Source of the DNA: Ancylomarina salipaludis
GTDB taxonomy: Bacteria; Bacteroidota; Bacteroidia; Bacteroidales; Marinifilaceae
Direction of reading: 5' to 3'
DNA length: 64,000 nucleotides
Assembly: GCF_004122035.1 (NCBI RefSeq)
Contig: NZ_SAXA01000007.1
Span: forward strand, 1 to 64,000
Below, piece by piece: positions 12,830 through 18,756 of this stretch (positions are counted from its first letter, which is position 1; every line of letters begins with the position of its first letter). A program made the translations under genes and the position numbers. The notes under the pieces were generated by a model, which saw only the letters and a program-made list of their open reading frames with translations, had not been told where the DNA came from and searched no databases.

Positions 12830-13552
12830 CTAAATCAGCTGCTCGCCCCCATCGCAATATAAAATTTGCCCGGTCAGGAAGTGATTATCCAGAATATAAT
12901 CCAGCGATTTAAGAATAGGTTGCATGCCACCCGGTTTTTTCATTGGGGTTTTAGCCGCCCGATTTTCCAGATAATCTTCCTCAGCGTTAATAGGAGCAAT
13001 GGTTGAACCCGGCGCAATGCCATTGACTCGAATATCCGGTCCAAATTCCAAAGCACCCATTTGAGTGAGATGAGATAAGGCAACTTTCGACAGACTATAA
13101 GCCGCATAGTCAGATGCAAACCTTGATATTCGTGTATCCAGGAAATTGACAATAAGGCCACGTTGACAGATATTCGCAAAATCGCGCATTAAAATAAAGG
13201 GTGCTCTAAAGTTGATCTGCATCTGTTCGTTAATCAGGTCGAGACTTGTATTTTTAATCGAACCAGGACTATAAACAGAAGCATTATTAATCAGCAAATC
13301 GATCTGCCCAAATTCTTCACTGACCTCAGCGATTAGAGATTCACAGGCAAGCTCATCGGAAAGATTACAACCAAACACTTTAAAAACCTGCTTGGGATAA
13401 AGAGCTTTAAGGTAATCTCTCAAAGCCATCGCCTCAGCTTTCGACGTATTGTAATGAAGGGCCAAATTCCACGACTGCTTAGCCAAATGAAGCGCCAACT
13501 CCTTTCCTATTCGTTTTGCCGATCCTGTAATTAATGCTGTTCTGGTTTCCAT
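12830..13552 (-). CDS. SDR oxidoreductase, pteridine-reductase/FolM-like
   Basis: This 240-residue short-chain dehydrogenase has the cofactor-binding TGSAKRIG (9-16), NNAS (89-92) and the catalytic YSLSK (Y152, K156). The usual catalytic serine before the tyrosine is replaced by an aspartate in the NFLDTR stretch (D139). In established families this Asp replacement marks pteridine reductase and the bacterial dihydromonapterin reductase FolM, and RIG after the glycine motif points to NADPH. The enzyme therefore probably reduces a pterin. It lies at the left edge of the palindrome-rich region and seems monocistronic. Confidence 0.78.
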   Translation of the reverse strand: METRTALITGSAKRIGKELALHLAKQSWNLALHYNTSKAEAMALRDYLKALYPKQVFKVFGCNLSDELACESLIAEVSEEFGQIDLLINNASVYSPGSIKNTSLDLINEQMQINFRAPFILMRDFANICQRGLIVNFLDTRISRFASDYAAYSLSKVALSHLTQMGALEFGPDIRVNGIAPGSTIAPINAEEDYLENRAAKTPMKKPGGMQPILKSLDYILDNHFLTGQILYCDGGEQLI

Positions 13553-13662
13553 ATCTTGATCTTAAATAGCTTAGCTGTAAAAGTACATCAATTCTAGAGT
13601 TTGAAGCCATCTTAACCTAATGGTTTTTCCACTGTCATGATCTGCCATACGATTTTTATTAG

Positions 13663-13755
13663 CTTCGTCGAACTTCGCTACGGTTCCCTACCCCTAAATC
13701 CCCTGAAGGGGACTCAAAAGACACTCCACTTAAGCCCCTTCAGGGGTTTGGGGTA
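13663..13755. repeat. Palindromic element copy A
   Basis: A flanking module like CGTCGAACTTCGCTACGG leads into the inverted repeat 13689-13755: TACCCCTAAATCCCCTGAAG on the left and CCCCTTCAGGGGTTTGGGG on the right, with a short A/C-rich centre. Each half also contains its own smaller palindrome. It lies between the SDR gene and the lipoprotein gene. Confidence 0.9.
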
Positions 13756-13828
13756 ATAGATTCTCTTAATTGTGTCGCTTTTATAAAAAAGCTTGATGGC
13801 GTTGAGCGCTAGCGACATCATTTTATTC

Positions 13829-14695
13829 CTAAATAATTTCAAATGGTTCGATATCTTTTCTGGTTTTGTAATATTCTAAGAGCGTTTTTTTAAGCGTCCC
13901 ATCTTCTATAAGCATTCTATGAAGCTCTTTTTCATACTTTTTACATATTTCATCCGTATTTTTCATACTCCCTTCTTCAGCTTCAATCTTCTCACTTAAA
14001 CTCTTTATTATTTGAAGATGTACCTTTCGCAAGTTTGGATCATTCAATGCTTCCTGACAGAATCCGGCAATTAAAAAGTTAACTTTATTTTCGAGTTTGT
14101 AAGCAAAAGGTGGTGCTCCACATCCAAAGTGAAAAGCAAAACCTCTATCCGGAATATATCCGGCAATATCGATATAAGCAAAGGAAATTTGCAAGAGACT
14201 GTCTATTCCAATACACGTCTTATTGGATTTAATAATATCCTTATATTCTTCCGTTTCGGTTTTATTCATATAATAACTTGAAAAAGCCGTATTGAAGATT
14301 CCTGCAAAAACAGGATCATTACAATAATGCGCAGTAATAAGCTCTCTAACCTTATCACAATTACAACCTTGTGTTACAAATAAAGAATCAACGCATTCAC
14401 CTGCTTTTGCATTAAGACTGGAATAATAGGCATTACTAATCCTATTTGAATAAGCACTGTAAAAACCAGCAAATTTGACACTATCCGGAATATGAAATTC
14501 CAGTATTTTCTTTTCCTGATTAAAACCAAAATAACGGAAATTAAGCTGAACTCTATTTTGTGTACTATCAGAACATCTAAATTCTGTCATGGTATCAAAA
14601 AAAGTATGAATATACTGATGCTCCTTTTCTTTGGTCGATTGGCACCCGACTATGCAAGACGCTATAATCGATAAAATTAATAGGTGTTTTTTCAT
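13829..14695 (-). CDS. Hypothetical lipoprotein
   Basis: This 288-residue protein has a lipoprotein signal peptide: a short basic start, a hydrophobic stretch and the lipobox IVGC with C18 as the lipidated residue. The mature part has several cysteines (for example the CNCDK region near 118 and FGCGAPPFAY near 198) and a charged helical C-terminus. No family is recognised. Palindromic elements A and B flank it on both sides, so it may be a recent acquisition. The reading frame is intact and probably expressed. Confidence 0.7.
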   Translation of the reverse strand: MKKHLLILSIIASCIVGCQSTKEKEHQYIHTFFDTMTEFRCSDSTQNRVQLNFRYFGFNQEKKILEFHIPDSVKFAGFYSAYSNRISNAYYSSLNAKAGECVDSLFVTQGCNCDKVRELITAHYCNDPVFAGIFNTAFSSYYMNKTETEEYKDIIKSNKTCIGIDSLLQISFAYIDIAGYIPDRGFAFHFGCGAPPFAYKLENKVNFLIAGFCQEALNDPNLRKVHLQIIKSLSEKIEAEEGSMKNTDEICKKYEKELHRMLIEDGTLKKTLLEYYKTRKDIEPFEII

Positions 14696-14720
14696 TCTGT
14701 TTTTAAAATTATAAAATAAA

Positions 14721-14845
14721 CGTCGAGTTACGCTTCGCTACGGTTTCCCACCCCAAGATGGACTACGTCGAGCTCCGCTTCGCTACGGTTCCCTGAAGGG
14801 GACTCAAAAGACACTCCACTTAAGCCCCTTCAGGGGTTTGGGGTA
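14721..14845. repeat. Palindromic element copy B, rearranged
   Basis: The flanking module occurs twice in tandem (14721-14750 and 14765-14793). The outer left arm is disrupted: CCACCCCAAGATGGACT replaces the normal ACCCCTAAATCCCCT. The rest of the palindrome, CCCTGAAGGGGACT through GGTTTGGGGTA, is intact and nearly identical to copy A. Confidence 0.85.
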
Positions 14846-14968
14846 ATGACTCTACTAGCTCCCACACAATAGTTGGCTTTTATTTTTTTATCAAGGAACG
14901 CGATACAACCGACCACAGAGAGCTCAGCGAAGCTAATCGCGCACCAGCGGGGTGCAACGGTTACTTTT

Positions 14969-15622
14969 GTTGGCACTTGTGCGTTATAGATATTTTCTCA
15001 GAGCTTTATAAAAATTATATTTTTCTTTGTGTAGTATTTTCAATTCATCCCGAACATCATTATGCCAATTCATATTTTCTATTGATTCATTAAGGTTTTT
15101 TAAGAATTCATCGTCTTCCTTTCTAGCCTTCTCAATATTGAGCCTATACTCATCAGTTCGTTTTAAAATTTTGCTCAAGATGGATTCGACTTTCTTTACT
15201 TCTGGTTTTAAATGAAGACTAGGAAACAAATAATCCTTATTCATGTTTACTGAAGATCCTATTCGGTTAATTTGATTCATTAAAGAGCTTACGAAACCAT
15301 GTATATTCTTTGATTTTGGAATTTTCATTTCGTTATTTAATGTTTCCAAAATTGAATCAATTAAAAAAATGAAATCTTTATATGTTTCGTATCTCAGGTC
15401 GAATAATTTCCTATTCGTAGTGTTTATTTCATGCATCCAAAATTGGAAAATACCAAATCCAAGTCCCAGAATTGAAAATATTCCTGCATATCTTTTTTCA
15501 TTGTCTGTAATTAACTCAAGTTGGAAAAATAATATCCACGTGAGGAATATAATTGCAATTAAAAATGAAAAAGGTAAAATATATCTAATGTATTTCTTCA
15601 TATTTTTAGCATTGGTGCCAAC
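14969..15622. other. Cassette-like unit bounded by inverted ends
   Basis: GTTGGCAC (14969-14976) and GTGCCAAC (15615-15622) face each other across one gene (14984-15601), with about ten base pairs of matching over the terminal 14. The gene fills the unit almost completely: 7 bp at its 3' side and 13 bp at its 5' side. A GCACC/GGTGC hairpin lies beyond the 3' boundary. The layout resembles an integron gene cassette, but the ends do not match the standard attC core (GTTRRRY), so this stays tentative. Confidence 0.4.
14984..15601 (-). CDS. Hypothetical two-pass membrane protein with helical cytoplasmic domain
   Basis: This 205-residue protein has two N-terminal membrane segments (about 7-30 and 38-56) followed by a charged, coiled-coil-prone helical region (about 60-205). 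No family is recognised. The unit is A/T-rich and carries a 5' untranslated tract of only a few bases inside the inverted ends. Its isolation inside a cassette-like unit suggests horizontal acquisition. Two-TM plus coiled-coil proteins occur in phage defence and stress systems, but nothing here proves such a role. Confidence 0.6.
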   Translation of the reverse strand: MKKYIRYILPFSFLIAIIFLTWILFFQLELITDNEKRYAGIFSILGLGFGIFQFWMHEINTTNRKLFDLRYETYKDFIFLIDSILETLNNEMKIPKSKNIHGFVSSLMNQINRIGSSVNMNKDYLFPSLHLKPEVKKVESILSKILKRTDEYRLNIEKARKEDDEFLKNLNESIENMNWHNDVRDELKILHKEKYNFYKALRKYL

Positions 15623-15628
15623 GAGAGA

Positions 15629-15649
15629 ATAAAGTGCAATGCACTTTAT
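15629..15649. repeat. Perfect 10-bp arm palindrome
   Basis: ATAAAGTGCA and TGCACTTTAT flank a single central A. It sits at the 5' edge of the cassette-like unit and before the next terminator, and could be a recombination-site hairpin or an operator. Confidence 0.6.
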
Positions 15650-15676
15650 CCCACTTATCTGTCATTTGTTATTATT

Positions 15677-15714
15677 CAAAAACTAAGGGCTTCACCTCCG
15701 GTGAAACCCTTAGT
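15677..15714 (-). terminator. Terminator after the DUF6261-like gene
   Basis: ACTAAGGGcTTCACC / GGTGAAaCCCTTAGT forms a 15-bp stem with one mismatch. On the minus strand it is followed by a short T run, 11 bp beyond the stop codon. Confidence 0.8.
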
Positions 15715-15724
15715 CGATGTTTTT

Positions 15725-16453
15725 TTAAATCACTTCGCTGTCTACTTCCTTTGTTTTATGACGGCGTTTTACCATTTCGTTATTTCTATCGATCAACTCG
15801 GCAATAGTTTTGGTGGTAGCCTCGTATGTGGCTGGGTTTACCTTTGCCATGGTATTCAGATACCCCACCAGGTTGGTGTTGATTTCCGTGATCGCCACTT
15901 TCTTCAACATACTGGCCGAAGCCAAATCTTTCTTCAGGCTCTCACCCTCAGCCTGCTGCAAAGCCACATTTTCAAAATCTTTTTGAGCCGCATCCAAGGC
16001 TGCTATGCTTTCCTGCACCCCCTGTAAGTTTGCTATGGCAGACAGGGCATTGGGCTTGCTTAAATCTTTAAGTAAAGACTCAATATCGGCCGATTCTTCG
16101 GCATAGTCCTCATTCTGTATGCTCAAACCATACTGCTCCAATATACGGTTCAGCACCAAGGCAGCTTCTTTCATTCCGGCAATAGGAATATGAACATAGC
16201 CCTCAACCAGCTTAAACAAAGCTCTGATGGCCATATCACGCACATGGTCCTTCTCTGCCATCTGAGAATAAGCTGTCAATCGCCTCAGAGCCTCAATCAG
16301 TGCGATGTTAGTAGCACTTATCTTTCCAATTACAGGCGTTAAATAAAGGTCCAAAGTCCAATCATTCTTCGCAAATGCTTTAAGAATAAGGGTTAATAAT
16401 GCACTAATGTCGCCATTGCGACTGCTCGTCATAATTCTCTTAATCGATACCAT
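15725..16453 (-). CDS. DUF6261-like helical protein
   Basis: This 242-residue protein is predicted all-helical, with no signal peptide or membrane segment. Features include a LTLILKAFAKNDWTLDLYL region near 20-38 and a C-terminal basic stretch EMVKRRHKTKEVD. It resembles the DUF6261 proteins common in Bacteroidales, which lack a known function; this assignment is from memory and moderate. Unusually, a five- to six-unit 41-bp repeat array lies directly upstream, between about 50 and 290 bp before the start codon, where its promoter should be. Confidence 0.55.
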   Translation of the reverse strand: MVSIKRIMTSSRNGDISALLTLILKAFAKNDWTLDLYLTPVIGKISATNIALIEALRRLTAYSQMAEKDHVRDMAIRALFKLVEGYVHIPIAGMKEAALVLNRILEQYGLSIQNEDYAEESADIESLLKDLSKPNALSAIANLQGVQESIAALDAAQKDFENVALQQAEGESLKKDLASASMLKKVAITEINTNLVGYLNTMAKVNPATYEATTKTIAELIDRNNEMVKRRHKTKEVDSEVI

Positions 16454-16868
16454 GGGTCGTAATTTTAAATTAGTATGTATTGATTATTTAAACTCTGATC
16501 TTTTGCTTTGTCATTTTGACAATGGGCAAAAAATCAATTTTTCAGACTTTATCATTTTGACAAAGGACAAAAAACCATTTTTTCAAACTTTGTCATTTTA
16601 ACATTGAGCAAAAAAGCATTTTTTCAGGCTTTATCATTTTAACATTGCCCCAAAAACCAATTTTTAGAGCTTTGTCATTCTGACATTGAACAAAAAAACA
16701 TTACATCAGGCTTCACCCCTACAGATATTGAGCAAAAAACCATTCATACCAATCAACATCTAACTCAATACGACTCACTTATCTTTATCATCTGTGAAAA
16801 ACTTAATAAATATAACGATTTTTTAACTGAACAAAAAAAATAATAATAAATGGGCTTTGGTGAGTTTT
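16454..16868. other. Gene-free stretch carrying the 41-bp array
   Basis: Apart from the 41-bp repeats (16505-16745), the stretch holds only A/T-rich sequence. Short frames inside it follow the repeat and are not considered genes. Confidence 0.6.
16505..16745. repeat. Tandem 41-bp repeat array upstream of the DUF6261-like gene
   Basis: TCATTTT (or TCATTCT) recurs at 16511, 16552, 16593, 16634 and 16675, exactly 41 bp apart, with a decayed sixth unit near 16713. Each unit reads roughly CTTTGTCATTTTGACAATGG followed by CAAAAAACCATTTTTTCAGG. The first unit contains the dyad TTGTCA-TTT-TGACAA and the fifth TGTCA-TTC-TGACA. Because 41 is not divisible by three, the array cannot be a repeated protein motif. 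It may be an operator array. Confidence 0.9.
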
Positions 16869-17051
16869 GCTTTGCTACAGATCCCTACCCCTAAATCCCC
16901 TAAAGGGGACTAAAGTGAATACTTGAAAGCCCCTTCAGGGGTTTGGGGTAAAGCGAGCAAACAATAGAAAACCACTCACATAAATGCAAGTGGCTTGGTT
17001 TTTCATTACTTAGGTTTAGCTTGGTTCTCTACCCCTAAACGGACTACATCG
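16869..17051. repeat. First copy of a 183-bp direct repeat (contains palindrome copy C)
   Basis: This segment recurs 234 bp later (17103-17285) with only about two differences (a T/G near 16991 and a C/T near 17033). It contains palindromic element C (16886-16950) plus about 100 bp of unique spacer. The near identity implies a recent tandem duplication. Confidence 0.9.
16886..16950. repeat. Palindromic element copy C
   Basis: TACCCCTAAATCCCCTAAAG with the matching CCCCTTCAGGGGTTTGGGG arm, in the same orientation as copy A and preceded by the flanking module TTTGCTACAGATCCC. Confidence 0.9.
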
Positions 17052-17120
17052 GGTTTCGTTTCACTGCAGATCCCTACCCCTAAATGGACTTCGTCGAGCT
17101 CCGCTTTGCTACAGATCCCT
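17031..17120. repeat. Two 45-bp iterations of the element's left module
   Basis: ACCCCTAAAC at 17031, ACCCCTAAAT at 17076 and ACCCCTAAAT at 17121 are spaced exactly 45 bp. In the first two the arm turns after CTAAAT/C into GGACTWCRTCG and repeats the flanking module, so partial elements are nested head to tail. Confidence 0.8.
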
Positions 17121-17285
17121 ACCCCTAAATCCCCTAAAGGGGACTAAAGTGAATACTTGAAAGCCCCTTCAGGGGTTTGGGGTAAAGCGAGCAAACAATA
17201 GAAAACCACTCACATAAATGCAAGGGGCTTGGTTTTTCATTACTTAGGTTTAGCTTGGTTCTCTACTCCTAAACGGACTACATCG
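17103..17285. repeat. Second copy of the 183-bp direct repeat (contains palindrome copy D)
   Basis: Near-identical to 16869-17051. Palindrome D spans 17120-17184. Confidence 0.9.
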
Positions 17286-17298
17286 AGCTACGGTTCCC

Positions 17299-17365
17299 CA
17301 CCCCTAAATCCCCTAAAGGGGACTTAAAAAAACAACTTTGGAAGCCCCTTAAGGGGTTTGGGGTA
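17299..17365. repeat. Palindromic element copy E, next to the DUF559 gene
   Basis: CACCCCTAAATCCCCTAAAG on the left and AAGCCCCTTAAGGGGTTTGG on the right. The copy ends 52 bp beyond the 3' end of the DUF559 endonuclease gene. Confidence 0.9.
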
Positions 17366-17417
17366 AACAGGTTTTTAAAAGTTAAGATTTGCTGAAGTTT
17401 ACGACCGCTACAATACA

Positions 17418-17825
17418 CTAAAGGGAACTTGCCAGCTCCAATTTTCGATCAACACAAATTTTATTAATTCTATTAAAGACACCATCTATTTCTTTTTCAA
17501 TTTCATCATTGGTAAAACGAATTATTTTTATCCCCCAATGACTTATTTCAGCCTCTCGTCCGATATCATATTCTTTTTGTTCAGGAGATTGATGTATTCC
17601 CCCATCAACCTCAATAATCAGTTTCAATGAATGACAGTAAAAATCAGCAATAAAAATATCAATTGGGTGCTGAGCTCTAAAACGTAATCCCTGCACCTGC
17701 TTATTTCTTATTAATTCCCAAAGTTTTAATTCGGCAAAAGTCATATTGTTTCTAAGAGCTTTTGCTTTCTCAAAAATATGAGGCTTTGCATTATAAAACA
17801 TCGATACTTGATCACTAATGCTCAT
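17418..17825 (-). CDS. DUF559 (Vsr-like) endonuclease domain protein
   Basis: This 135-residue protein is a single DUF559 domain of the restriction-endonuclease-like fold, related to very-short-patch repair nucleases. The predicted active site is intact: D61 in IADFYC, then E72 and D74 in KLIIEVDGG, and H78. The N-terminal half (KALRNNMTFAELKLWELIRN) is the usual DUF559 helical lead. No substrate is known for these stand-alone proteins. The gene lies exactly between palindromic copies E and F, with no methyltransferase or other restriction gene nearby. That arrangement suggests it works on the palindromes. Confidence 0.88.
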   Translation of the reverse strand: MSISDQVSMFYNAKPHIFEKAKALRNNMTFAELKLWELIRNKQVQGLRFRAQHPIDIFIADFYCHSLKLIIEVDGGIHQSPEQKEYDIGREAEISHWGIKIIRFTNDEIEKEIDGVFNRINKICVDRKLELASSL

Positions 17826-17885
17826 AATTTCATATTTAAATTCCTATCTCACCTTCTAATTAAATGTACAAAAAAAGACTAACAA

Positions 17886-17920
17886 AAGCCCCTTTAGGGG
17901 TTTGGGGTAATACGAACGTT
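17886..17920. repeat. Palindromic element copy F, right half only
   Basis: Only AAGCCCCTTTAGGGGTTTGG and the following TAATACGAACG tail are present, 60 bp upstream of the DUF559 start codon. The same 35-bp piece occurs 132 bp downstream in copy G. Confidence 0.85.
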
Positions 17921-17975
17921 AGAAAATAAATCAATCAGTACAGATTTCAAAAAGTTTCACTTCACTACAGATTCC

Positions 17976-18052
17976 TACCCCTACATCTCTAAAAGGGGAC
18001 AAAAAAACACTCAACTAAAGCCCCTTTAGGGGTTTGGGGTAATACGAACGAT
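17976..18052. repeat. Palindromic element copy G
   Basis: The left arm TACCCCTACATCTCTAAAAG is slightly decayed. The right arm AAGCCCCTTTAGGGGTTTGG and tail AATACGAACG match copy F. The next gene begins about 40 bp later. Confidence 0.85.
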
Positions 18053-18093
18053 TGAAATATAATACTTACATTTGAGCTTAAACAAAATAAGCT

Positions 18094-18756
18094 ATGAACC
18101 ACACTATAAGCATAGAATCTCAATTAACAAAGCTTTGTCCTGATCTTAAATTAGGGGTAATAGAATGTAAAGTAAAGGTCACAGAAAAGAATCAGAAACT
18201 TTGGGAAGTGATCAACAAATATATCAGTCAAGTAGAGCAAGAAATGACGCTTGAGGCTATTCGTGAAATGCCAACAATTTTATCCTCCAAAAATGGCTAC
18301 CGCAAAGTAGGAAAAGACCCCAACCGATACCGCCTTTCAGCGGAATCCTTACTCCGCAGAATTGTGAACGGGAAAGGTCTGTACAAAATCAATAATGTGG
18401 TCGACCTACTCAATTTTGTTTCCATTCAGTCGGGTTTCTCCATTGGTGGGTACAATGCCGATAAAATAGTTGGCAATATTACGATGGGACTTGGGCAGGC
18501 AGATGAAGCTTACCAGGGCATTGGACGAGGCGATCTGAATATCGAAAACCTGCCCGTTTTTCGCGATGAGATCGGCGCTTTTGGCAGTGCAACCAGCGAT
18601 TCGCTTCGTACACAAATCGAATTAGATTGCCAGAATTTTCTGATGGTATTCTTTTCGTATCAGGGCGAAAAAGAATTGGTTGAAAGTCTGAATTTGGCAG
18701 AAGAACTCTTAATAAAATATGCCGAGGCTGAAACTGTCAAAACGGCAATTGTTTAA
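18094..18756 (+). CDS. B3/B4 domain protein
   Basis: This 220-residue soluble protein resembles the B3/B4 domain of the phenylalanyl-tRNA synthetase beta chain, which in the synthetase belongs to the non-catalytic core. The recognisable block runs from RLSAESLLRRIVNGKGLYKINNVVD-like sequence (about 80-104) through GGYNADKIVGNITMGLGQADE to PVFRDEIGAFGSATSDS (about 153-169). Free-standing B3/B4 proteins are widespread and may edit mischarged tRNA or bind amino acids, but their role is not established. The gene appears monocistronic. Confidence 0.85.
   Translation: MNHTISIESQLTKLCPDLKLGVIECKVKVTEKNQKLWEVINKYISQVEQEMTLEAIREMPTILSSKNGYRKVGKDPNRYRLSAESLLRRIVNGKGLYKINNVVDLLNFVSIQSGFSIGGYNADKIVGNITMGLGQADEAYQGIGRGDLNIENLPVFRDEIGAFGSATSDSLRTQIELDCQNFLMVFFSYQGEKELVESLNLAEELLIKYAEAETVKTAIV

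Follow-up and report, generated by a model that had tools for sequence, protein, structure and literature searches.

The 64,000-nucleotide stretch analysed here (the window; Ancylomarina salipaludis, contig NZ_SAXA01000007.1, positions 1 to 64,000) contains a solitary gene for a DUF559 protein (Pfam family PF04480) among a family of nested palindromes. This arrangement raises the question of whether gene and palindromes belong together and, if so, what part the putative nuclease plays in the spread of the repeats. The spatial link between DUF559 genes and palindromes is general and not a local accident. Beyond that, we consider it somewhat probable that solitary DUF559 genes and the palindromes around them, which resemble REPINs (doublets of repetitive extragenic palindromic, or REP, elements that form hairpins), represent one co-inherited mobile partnership, with the nuclease in the place of a transposase. 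The features on which the analysis rests are as follows.

13665..13688, + strand: flanking module before copy A, read directly from the sequence
13689..13755, + strand: palindrome copy A, complete, folded as DNA and aligned
14721..14788, + strand: two flanking modules before copy B, starting at 14721 and 14766 (L004 2533-2555 and 2578-2600)
14790..14845, + strand: palindrome copy B, left outer arm lost, with a flanking module in its place
16847..17314, + strand: 234-bp tandem duplication with copies C and D (repeat family D4, 90% identity)
16886..16950, + strand: palindrome copy C, complete, folded as DNA and aligned
17092..17114, + strand: flanking module before copy D (L005 1707-1729)
17120..17184, + strand: palindrome copy D, complete, aligned
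17299..17365, + strand: palindrome copy E, complete, 52 bp to the DUF559 stop codon
17418..17825, - strand: solitary DUF559 gene, 135 amino acids, intact open reading frame (ORF); PF04480 at 113.4 bits, E = 6.2e-33
17886..17909, + strand: palindrome half copy F, right half only, 60 bp to the DUF559 start codon
17976..18041, + strand: palindrome copy G, complete, left half degraded

An earlier note on this DNA had described seven co-oriented copies of a 65-bp palindrome and had placed an intact DUF559 gene between E and F. The co-orientation and the position of the gene, at the distances claimed (52 and 60 bp), are borne out; the count is not, as five copies are complete at 65–67 bp, one is truncated and one is a half. 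Each half of a complete copy holds a 12-bp hairpin with a G-rich tail inside the outer arms, in agreement with the smaller palindrome that the note had placed in each half, and the flanking module that it had seen at several copies recurs at about 13665, 14721, 14766 and 17092. A module similar to it adjoins palindromes in Ancylomarina euxinus (L121). Copies C and D are not independent, because both lie on the 234-bp tandem duplication, the units of which (16847-17080 and 17081-17314) are 90% identical.

DNA folding was carried out on five copies (A, C, E, F and G). Copies A, C and E folded better than shuffled sequences (z = -4.9, -4.5 and -3.2), and copies G and F did not (z = -1.2 and -0.9). 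The linkers are unequal (TAAAT against TTT), and therefore two T residues are unpaired on one strand. This exact five-against-three asymmetry was found in 43 of 71 related rows, which include both strands of some sites; 15 rows could not be classified and 13 differ. In the palindrome alignment, 95.4% of cells are paired and four pairs have changed on both sides, a number reached in 2 of 500 shuffles. A search of Rfam gave a single match, at 22.8 bits against a cut-off of 100 (E = 0.58), and nothing further.

The DUF559 protein passes the curated PF04480 cut-off by a wide distance (113.4 against 20.6 bits). In Pfam, the family is still described as a 'protein of unknown function'. Its nearest relative, from A. 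euxinus, is 87% identical. Invariant residues among 65 homologues include R24, T28, E31, W35, D60, E71, H77 and R102. In an AlphaFold model (mean predicted local distance difference test score 86.4), the predicted nuclease fold resembles a homing endonuclease domain: Foldseek matched the model to 3hrl, a putative endonuclease-like protein, and to the domain of the homing endonuclease I-Bth0305I (probability 1.00, template modelling score 0.57-0.58 on the query), and a sequence profile search found the same two structures (hmmsearch, 1.5e-4 for I-Bth0305I). No Vsr structure was among the best 50 Foldseek matches listed. The ratio of nonsynonymous to synonymous substitution rates (dN/dS) was 0.04-0.43 in 15 of 16 pairs, with a dS of 0 in the remaining pair; the sequence comparisons thus show solitary DUF559 genes to be under purifying selection.

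PF04480 is present in 171 of 296 sampled Bacteroidota genomes, counting solitary and fused forms together, and its open frames fall mostly into two classes, of about 115-200 amino acids (solitary) and about 800-1400 amino acids (fused). The loci compared comprised 40 solitary and 20 fused genes sampled across the phylum (with up to 8 kb on each side), 80 solitary genes from named relatives and 40 further solitary genes. Structure was measured as GC-corrected folding energy in sliding windows. Strong structure was seen in 23.5% of windows upstream and 29.1% downstream within 100 bp of the sampled solitary genes, and in about 1-3% beyond 500 bp; the corresponding values were 8.9% and 10.4% for the named set and 5.0% and 9.2% for fused genes. 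Both 200-bp flanks were structured in 23 of 38 sampled solitary loci, as opposed to 17 of 343 control ORFs taken from the same loci, and in 20 of 75 named loci (39 of 763 controls); fused genes gave 3 of 20 (5 of 154 controls). The denominators 38 of 40 and 75 of 80 reflect loci with 200 bp present on each side, and 74 of the 80 named loci entered the search for a repeat common to the two flanks. Such a repeat was found in 26 of 38 sampled and 49 of 74 named loci, compared to 10 of 339 and 21 of 759 controls, and in 2 of 20 fused loci (1 of 150 controls). Palindromes of the window's own type are concentrated in the same way: in the 80 named loci, 63 of 85 sites lie within 500 bp of the DUF559 gene, a density 48-fold higher than elsewhere. 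The spatial link that the earlier note had drawn from one locus extends to related and distant genomes, in which solitary DUF559 genes are strongly enriched beside such palindromes; the lack of enrichment that the note had named as a first ground for refutation is thus not seen.

These flanks could also be accounted for by palindromes that serve as terminators or insulators, or that make up neutral islands, rich in repeats, where small genes are tolerated; DUF559 would then have no mechanistic connection with them. Gene ends often carry hairpins: control ORFs had a structured flank in 105 of 343 cases downstream (57 of 343 upstream). Other small nuclease genes are also found amid repeats, and the locus itself corresponds to a gap that has grown. 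The SDR and B3/4 genes that border it are adjacent in other genera of the family, where 11 loci show a spacing of 158-205 bp; within the genus the gap, filled by small genes and repeats, measures 0.96, 2.6 and 8.6 kb and, in the window, 4.5 kb (13552-18094). However, sampled DUF559 genes have a structured flank upstream as often as downstream (29 and 29 of 38), and the class of repeat is particular to the nuclease family and its clade. We regard an incidental association of this kind as improbable.

The specificity of the repeat class is seen with a simple motif, CCCC followed by GGGG within 9 bases. Of 161 solitary DUF559 genes, 109 have it in their flanks, as opposed to 1 of 20 fused genes, 18 of 230 control ORFs, 1 of 28 RAYT genes (encoding REP-associated tyrosine transposases), 0 of 25 GIY-YIG genes and 0 of 28 GxxExxY genes. 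Reduction to representatives at 60% identity left 48 of 84 DUF559 genes with the motif, and random flanks of the same dinucleotide make-up contained it in 21.8+/-4.5 of 158 cases.

For the comparison of flank similarity with protein identity, 161 solitary DUF559 proteins were aligned (L198, with a long frame, was left out), 158 of them with usable flanks. Between genomes, flanks were alike in 94% of pairs at 70% DUF559 identity or above (n = 106) and in 74.5% at 60-70% (n = 373), dropping to 21% at 50-60% and to about 1% or less below 45%. Pairs within the same genome had alike flanks in 0 of 49 cases below 50% identity, 2 of 8 at 50-60% and 2 of 2 at 70% or above. The trend persists among between-genome pairs that are non-syntenic, defined as having no homologous neighbour within 4 kb (40 loci hold only about 2 kb on each side): 39 of 43 at 70% or above and 241 of 334 at 60-70% (together 280 of 377), 315 of 1665 at 50-60%, 63 of 1214 at 45-50% and 57 of 8736 below 45%. 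The window gene and the 87% identical one from A. euxinus exemplify this, being non-syntenic by the 4-kb test and having their palindromes in common. The direction is plain, as far as these sequence comparisons reach: palindrome type tracks the DUF559 clade, and neither the host genome nor the locus.

The second DUF559 gene of the window's own genome (G000; 4.15 Mb, 55 contigs), on contig C2, lies amid a palindrome family unlike the window's. Nine pieces matching the C2 type are present in the genome, eight of them within the 89-147 kb section of C2. Palindrome sequence is lineage-specific across the phylum, where a model of the window palindrome (R1) matched 9 of 296 genomes when 17 candidates per genome were scored, with 16 matches from the own genome. 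Given this specificity and the small number of candidates scored, the model was set aside as a gauge of co-occurrence.

The association also reaches other phyla. Among 39 records of a plasmid collection with a match, 16 loci were taken from Cyanobacteria, Deinococcota and Alphaproteobacteria; 12 of the 16 pass the combined flank measure, and CCCC..GGGG is present at 11, on both sides at 7. The motif is absent from the flanks of L275, which adjoins a BREX gene. In four Deinococcus loci (L277, L280, L281 and L283), the DUF559 gene lies between the inverted halves of one palindrome. Three hpa clusters carry this unit in different gaps: between hpaB and an oxidoreductase gene in L277, between the oxidoreductase gene and hpaE in L281, and between a VOC gene and a hypothetical gene in L283. 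The oxidoreductase and hpaE genes overlap by 4 bp in L277, at the junction that the unit occupies in L281.

Copies of the palindromes are dispersed without the gene as well. Genome G179 (one contig, 4.8 Mb) has a single DUF559 match, and the 138-bp unit that flanks it recurs as 92 matching pieces, many of them incomplete, which make up 38 loci separated by more than 2 kb. Elsewhere in that genome, far from the DUF559 gene (C1:1457443-1458582), eight palindromic pieces stand in tandem at a spacing of about 167 bp. Because of the flank enrichment, the clade tracking, the motif in other phyla and the dispersal in G179, the gene and its palindromes appear to be inherited together as a mobile unit.

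Based on these data, a model can be outlined. In its simplest form, the autonomous unit would be one palindrome whose two halves enclose the gene in their loop, and gene-free palindromes would be short non-autonomous derivatives of it. The DUF559 protein may recognise the palindrome as a hairpin or cruciform, the unequal linkers making the two strands different, and may nick or cut either the palindrome or a target. Repair of the break would then copy the palindrome, and sometimes the gene too, into the break. That it is the nuclease that spreads the palindromes is our inference. The process would work like that of REPINs and RAYTs, by analogy, with a hydrolytic nuclease replacing the tyrosine transposase.

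Fifteen of 162 DUF559 loci lie after a permease-like ORF ending in ..NPVEALRYE, and in three of them about 57 bp of the permease 3' end is repeated beyond the DUF559 unit (56 of 57 positions in L135, 56 of 59 in L142 and 56 of 57 in L185), each copy matching its own permease best. In the other 12 permease loci, the 3'-end copy is weak, closer to the permease of another locus, or absent. Target-site duplication as a general rule, sought in all 15, was not borne out, being clear in three only. In these three, the duplications would fit staggered breaks at insertion, and break and repair would account for them as well as for local tandem amplification.

The same duplications can be read differently, as a target event at the insertion of a homing-type selfish gene. 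DUF559 would in this case insert in or beside palindromes that are spread otherwise, and the palindromes would be landing sites, not cargo. Consistent with this, among solved structures whose role is known, the closest is that of the homing endonuclease I-Bth0305I. Moreover, in G323, the genome in which the neighbouring genes are most like the window's, decayed palindromes are found at the orthologous site with no DUF559 gene there (the search of that genome for DUF559 covered this site only), and 16 of 18 window-type sites in the own genome lie away from the gene. However, a gene that settles among resident repeats would be expected to have those of its host beside it, and the clade-tracking palindromes therefore speak against homing: palindrome sequence varies with DUF559 clade across non-syntenic loci, and diverged paralogues in the same genome do not share it. 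The four Deinococcus loci with the gene between inverted halves of one palindrome also argue against it. Overall, a homing gene is a rather unlikely explanation.

A further possibility is that a Y1 tyrosine transposase (RAYT) encoded elsewhere in the genome moves the palindromes in trans, with DUF559 as a passenger. The earlier note had stated that no transposase is present; this holds for Y1_Tnp on the window's contig (other transposase families were not searched for), and three Y1_Tnp genes were found on other contigs. Downstream of one of the three, on contig C34, three window-type palindromes lie at a distance of 0.3-1.0 kb. In this region (L202), a mosaic of small palindromes is interleaved with the three window-type palindromes at a period of about 300 bp. 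The layout of the palindromes is also that of REPINs, and their linkers are strand-asymmetric. On the other hand, the CCCC..GGGG class accompanies 1 of 28 RAYT genes, compared to 109 of 161 DUF559 genes, and the window copies have no GTAG 5' of their hairpins; in these copies GTAG appears only 3', on the bottom strand, at the left ends of A, C, D and G. Mobilisation by a RAYT is, in our judgement, very improbable.

Several observations weigh against the proposed partnership of nuclease and palindromes. The own genome contains 18 distinct window-type sites (model R1, E<=0.01; 150 of 1386 first-look candidates were scored, so that the count is perhaps a lower bound), and only two of them, E and G, lie within 200 bp of a DUF559 gene, together with half copy F, which had no match in this search. 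The other 16 are farther off, among them the three beside the Y1_Tnp gene. One site, on contig C23, is 313 bp from a match to the GxxExxY nuclease family, which complicates the idea that the DUF559 nuclease spreads the repeats; at five further sites (L001, L002, L003, L025 and L030), no nuclease was evident among ORFs of at least 75 amino acids, judged by eye and without a profile scan. The palindrome-bearing G323 site without a DUF559 gene belongs here too. Among the 80 named loci, only 36 have a window-type palindrome within 500 bp. Furthermore, solitary loci were taken from the strongest PF04480 matches with short frames in an E-value-limited list, from which weak members are missing; the pairs of loci compared are not independent of each other; and the CCCC..GGGG motif was picked after the flanks had been viewed. 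In random 20-kb segments, this motif occurred at 14 sites against 12.4 expected in genomes without a PF04480 match (17 of 20 segments usable) and at 20 against 48.2 expected in genomes with a solitary DUF559 gene (19 of 20 usable), with 0 and 2 clusters, respectively; neither set shows an excess, for a crude motif and sets that differ in G+C. The covariation in the palindrome alignment is weak, its score being matched by 32 of 500 shuffles in an alignment fitted to the model.

The looser combined flank measure adds to these points. It was passed by 36 of 38, 37 of 40 and 66 of 75 solitary DUF559 loci and by 9 of 20 fused ones, and also by 22 of 27 RAYT, 19 of 25 GIY-YIG and 16 of 28 GxxExxY loci (comparison loci used were 25 of 30 for GIY-YIG, 28 of 30 for PDDEXK_3 and 27 or 28 of 32 for RAYT). 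Its baseline is high, with a hairpin in at least one flank of 145 of 343 control ORFs. Because GIY-YIG and GxxExxY genes often pass, the mere presence of adjoining repeats does not set DUF559 apart; the class of repeat does.

Comparison with known systems places the proposed partnership closest to REPINs and RAYTs, also called REPtrons (TnpA-REP with REP palindromes). According to two studies (PMC3116915, PMC3733652), two inverted small hairpins make a larger palindrome in these systems, enzyme genes are single, distinctive copies, palindrome families differ by enzyme gene within one genome, and repeats are found both as dispersed solo copies and as clusters with flanking DNA. The window palindromes similarly comprise two REP-like hairpins in inverted arrangement, as seen by eye in other genomes as well. 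Many dispersed copies are accompanied by one enzyme gene (38 loci and one DUF559 gene in G179; the own genome has fewer, with 18 sites), and the palindrome family matches the enzyme lineage, here the DUF559 clade. According to PMC8266576, TnpA-REP depends for its strand-specific action on a GTAG foot and, in E. coli, on a bulge as well; the unequal linkers are a formal parallel. The differences are that the enzyme is a DUF559 nuclease (PF04480) and not a Y1 HUH transposase, that the window copies lack a GTAG 5' of their hairpins, and that the DUF559 gene can occupy the loop of one palindrome.

Other comparisons differ mainly in the company that the gene keeps. The window protein and the catalytic domain of I-Bth0305I, an EDxHD homing endonuclease, probably have their fold in common, judging from the model, and a DUF559 gene has been assigned to the EDxHD family in PMC9403480; yet the PDB entry is named as a mobile intron protein, whereas at the DUF559 gene no intron was noticed (none was sought) and the companions are palindromes. 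Caulobacter VsrA also has a DUF559 domain, and its gene is unlinked to a methyltransferase gene. The role proposed for it is T:G mismatch repair, and palindromes are not mentioned in the sections of PMC12907096 on which this comparison draws, whereas they adjoin the window gene. Recombination hotspots at segments with a transposase and DUF559, and near GIY-YIG genes, are reported in PMC12308824, unconfirmed by its authors. Our search of the open-access literature, which most subscription papers lie outside, found no paper linking DUF559 with palindromic repeats. Miniature inverted-repeat transposable elements and elements flanked by terminal inverted repeats give rise to short, non-autonomous versions of the termini of an element that carries a gene. 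In the present case, by contrast, the ends are the nested hairpins themselves, and the only gene of the unit is the nuclease gene. TIRtrons are treated in PMC3733652.

If solitary DUF559 genes do act together with palindromic repeats, an enzyme can be assigned to a body of intergenic palindromes that so far lack an explanation, ordinary laboratory strains can be used to test how REPs spread where no tyrosine transposase serves them, and homing-type and Vsr-like nucleases are placed in a new setting. The recurrence of the set in several phyla suggests an unrecognised kind of mobile repeat, with a nuclease instead of a transposase.

Solitary nucleases of other families have repeats of their own. 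CACAGAG/CTCTGTG is found in the flanks of 12 of 28 GxxExxY genes, compared to 1 of 161 DUF559 genes and 3 of 230 control ORFs. Solitary GxxExxY/PDDEXK_3 nuclease genes of Bacteroidota (L351-L380) were seen between inverted repeats of ACCACAGAGGCACAGAG type. Hairpins of the GTCA..TCGAAGGG or CGTC-like type are frequent in the flanks of solitary GIY-YIG genes (L321-L350), and the GIY-YIG gene of the own genome (L336; G000:C54:28338-28565) lies between CGTCATCCTGAACTCGTTTCAGGATCT and an inverted partner. The GIY-YIG class is less sharp, a crude CGTC-like motif being present in 9 of 25 GIY-YIG flanks, 14 of 161 DUF559 flanks and 21 of 230 controls. The last two of these counts do not support CGTC REPs as a name for the window palindromes.

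A broader reading can be put forward tentatively: a class of nuclease-driven mobile palindromes may exist in bacteria, in which each solitary nuclease family has a separate repeat class that is copied by break and repair, free of a transposase. The classes would be CCCC..GGGG nested palindromes for DUF559, ACCACAGAGG-type inverted repeats for GxxExxY/PDDEXK_3 and GTCA..TCGAAGGG or CGTC-like hairpins for GIY-YIG. CGTC-tagged REPs are reported to form a class without a dedicated transposase that also occurs in Bacteroidetes (PMC3733652), and solitary GIY-YIG genes might be their missing partner. Were the broader reading true, the missing enzyme of these REPs would be supplied.

One other repeat was noted in the window. 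Copies of a 41-bp tandem repeat occupy positions 16506-16751, upstream of a DUF6261 gene, and diverged arrays like it are located at the same place in two relatives (L307 and L308).

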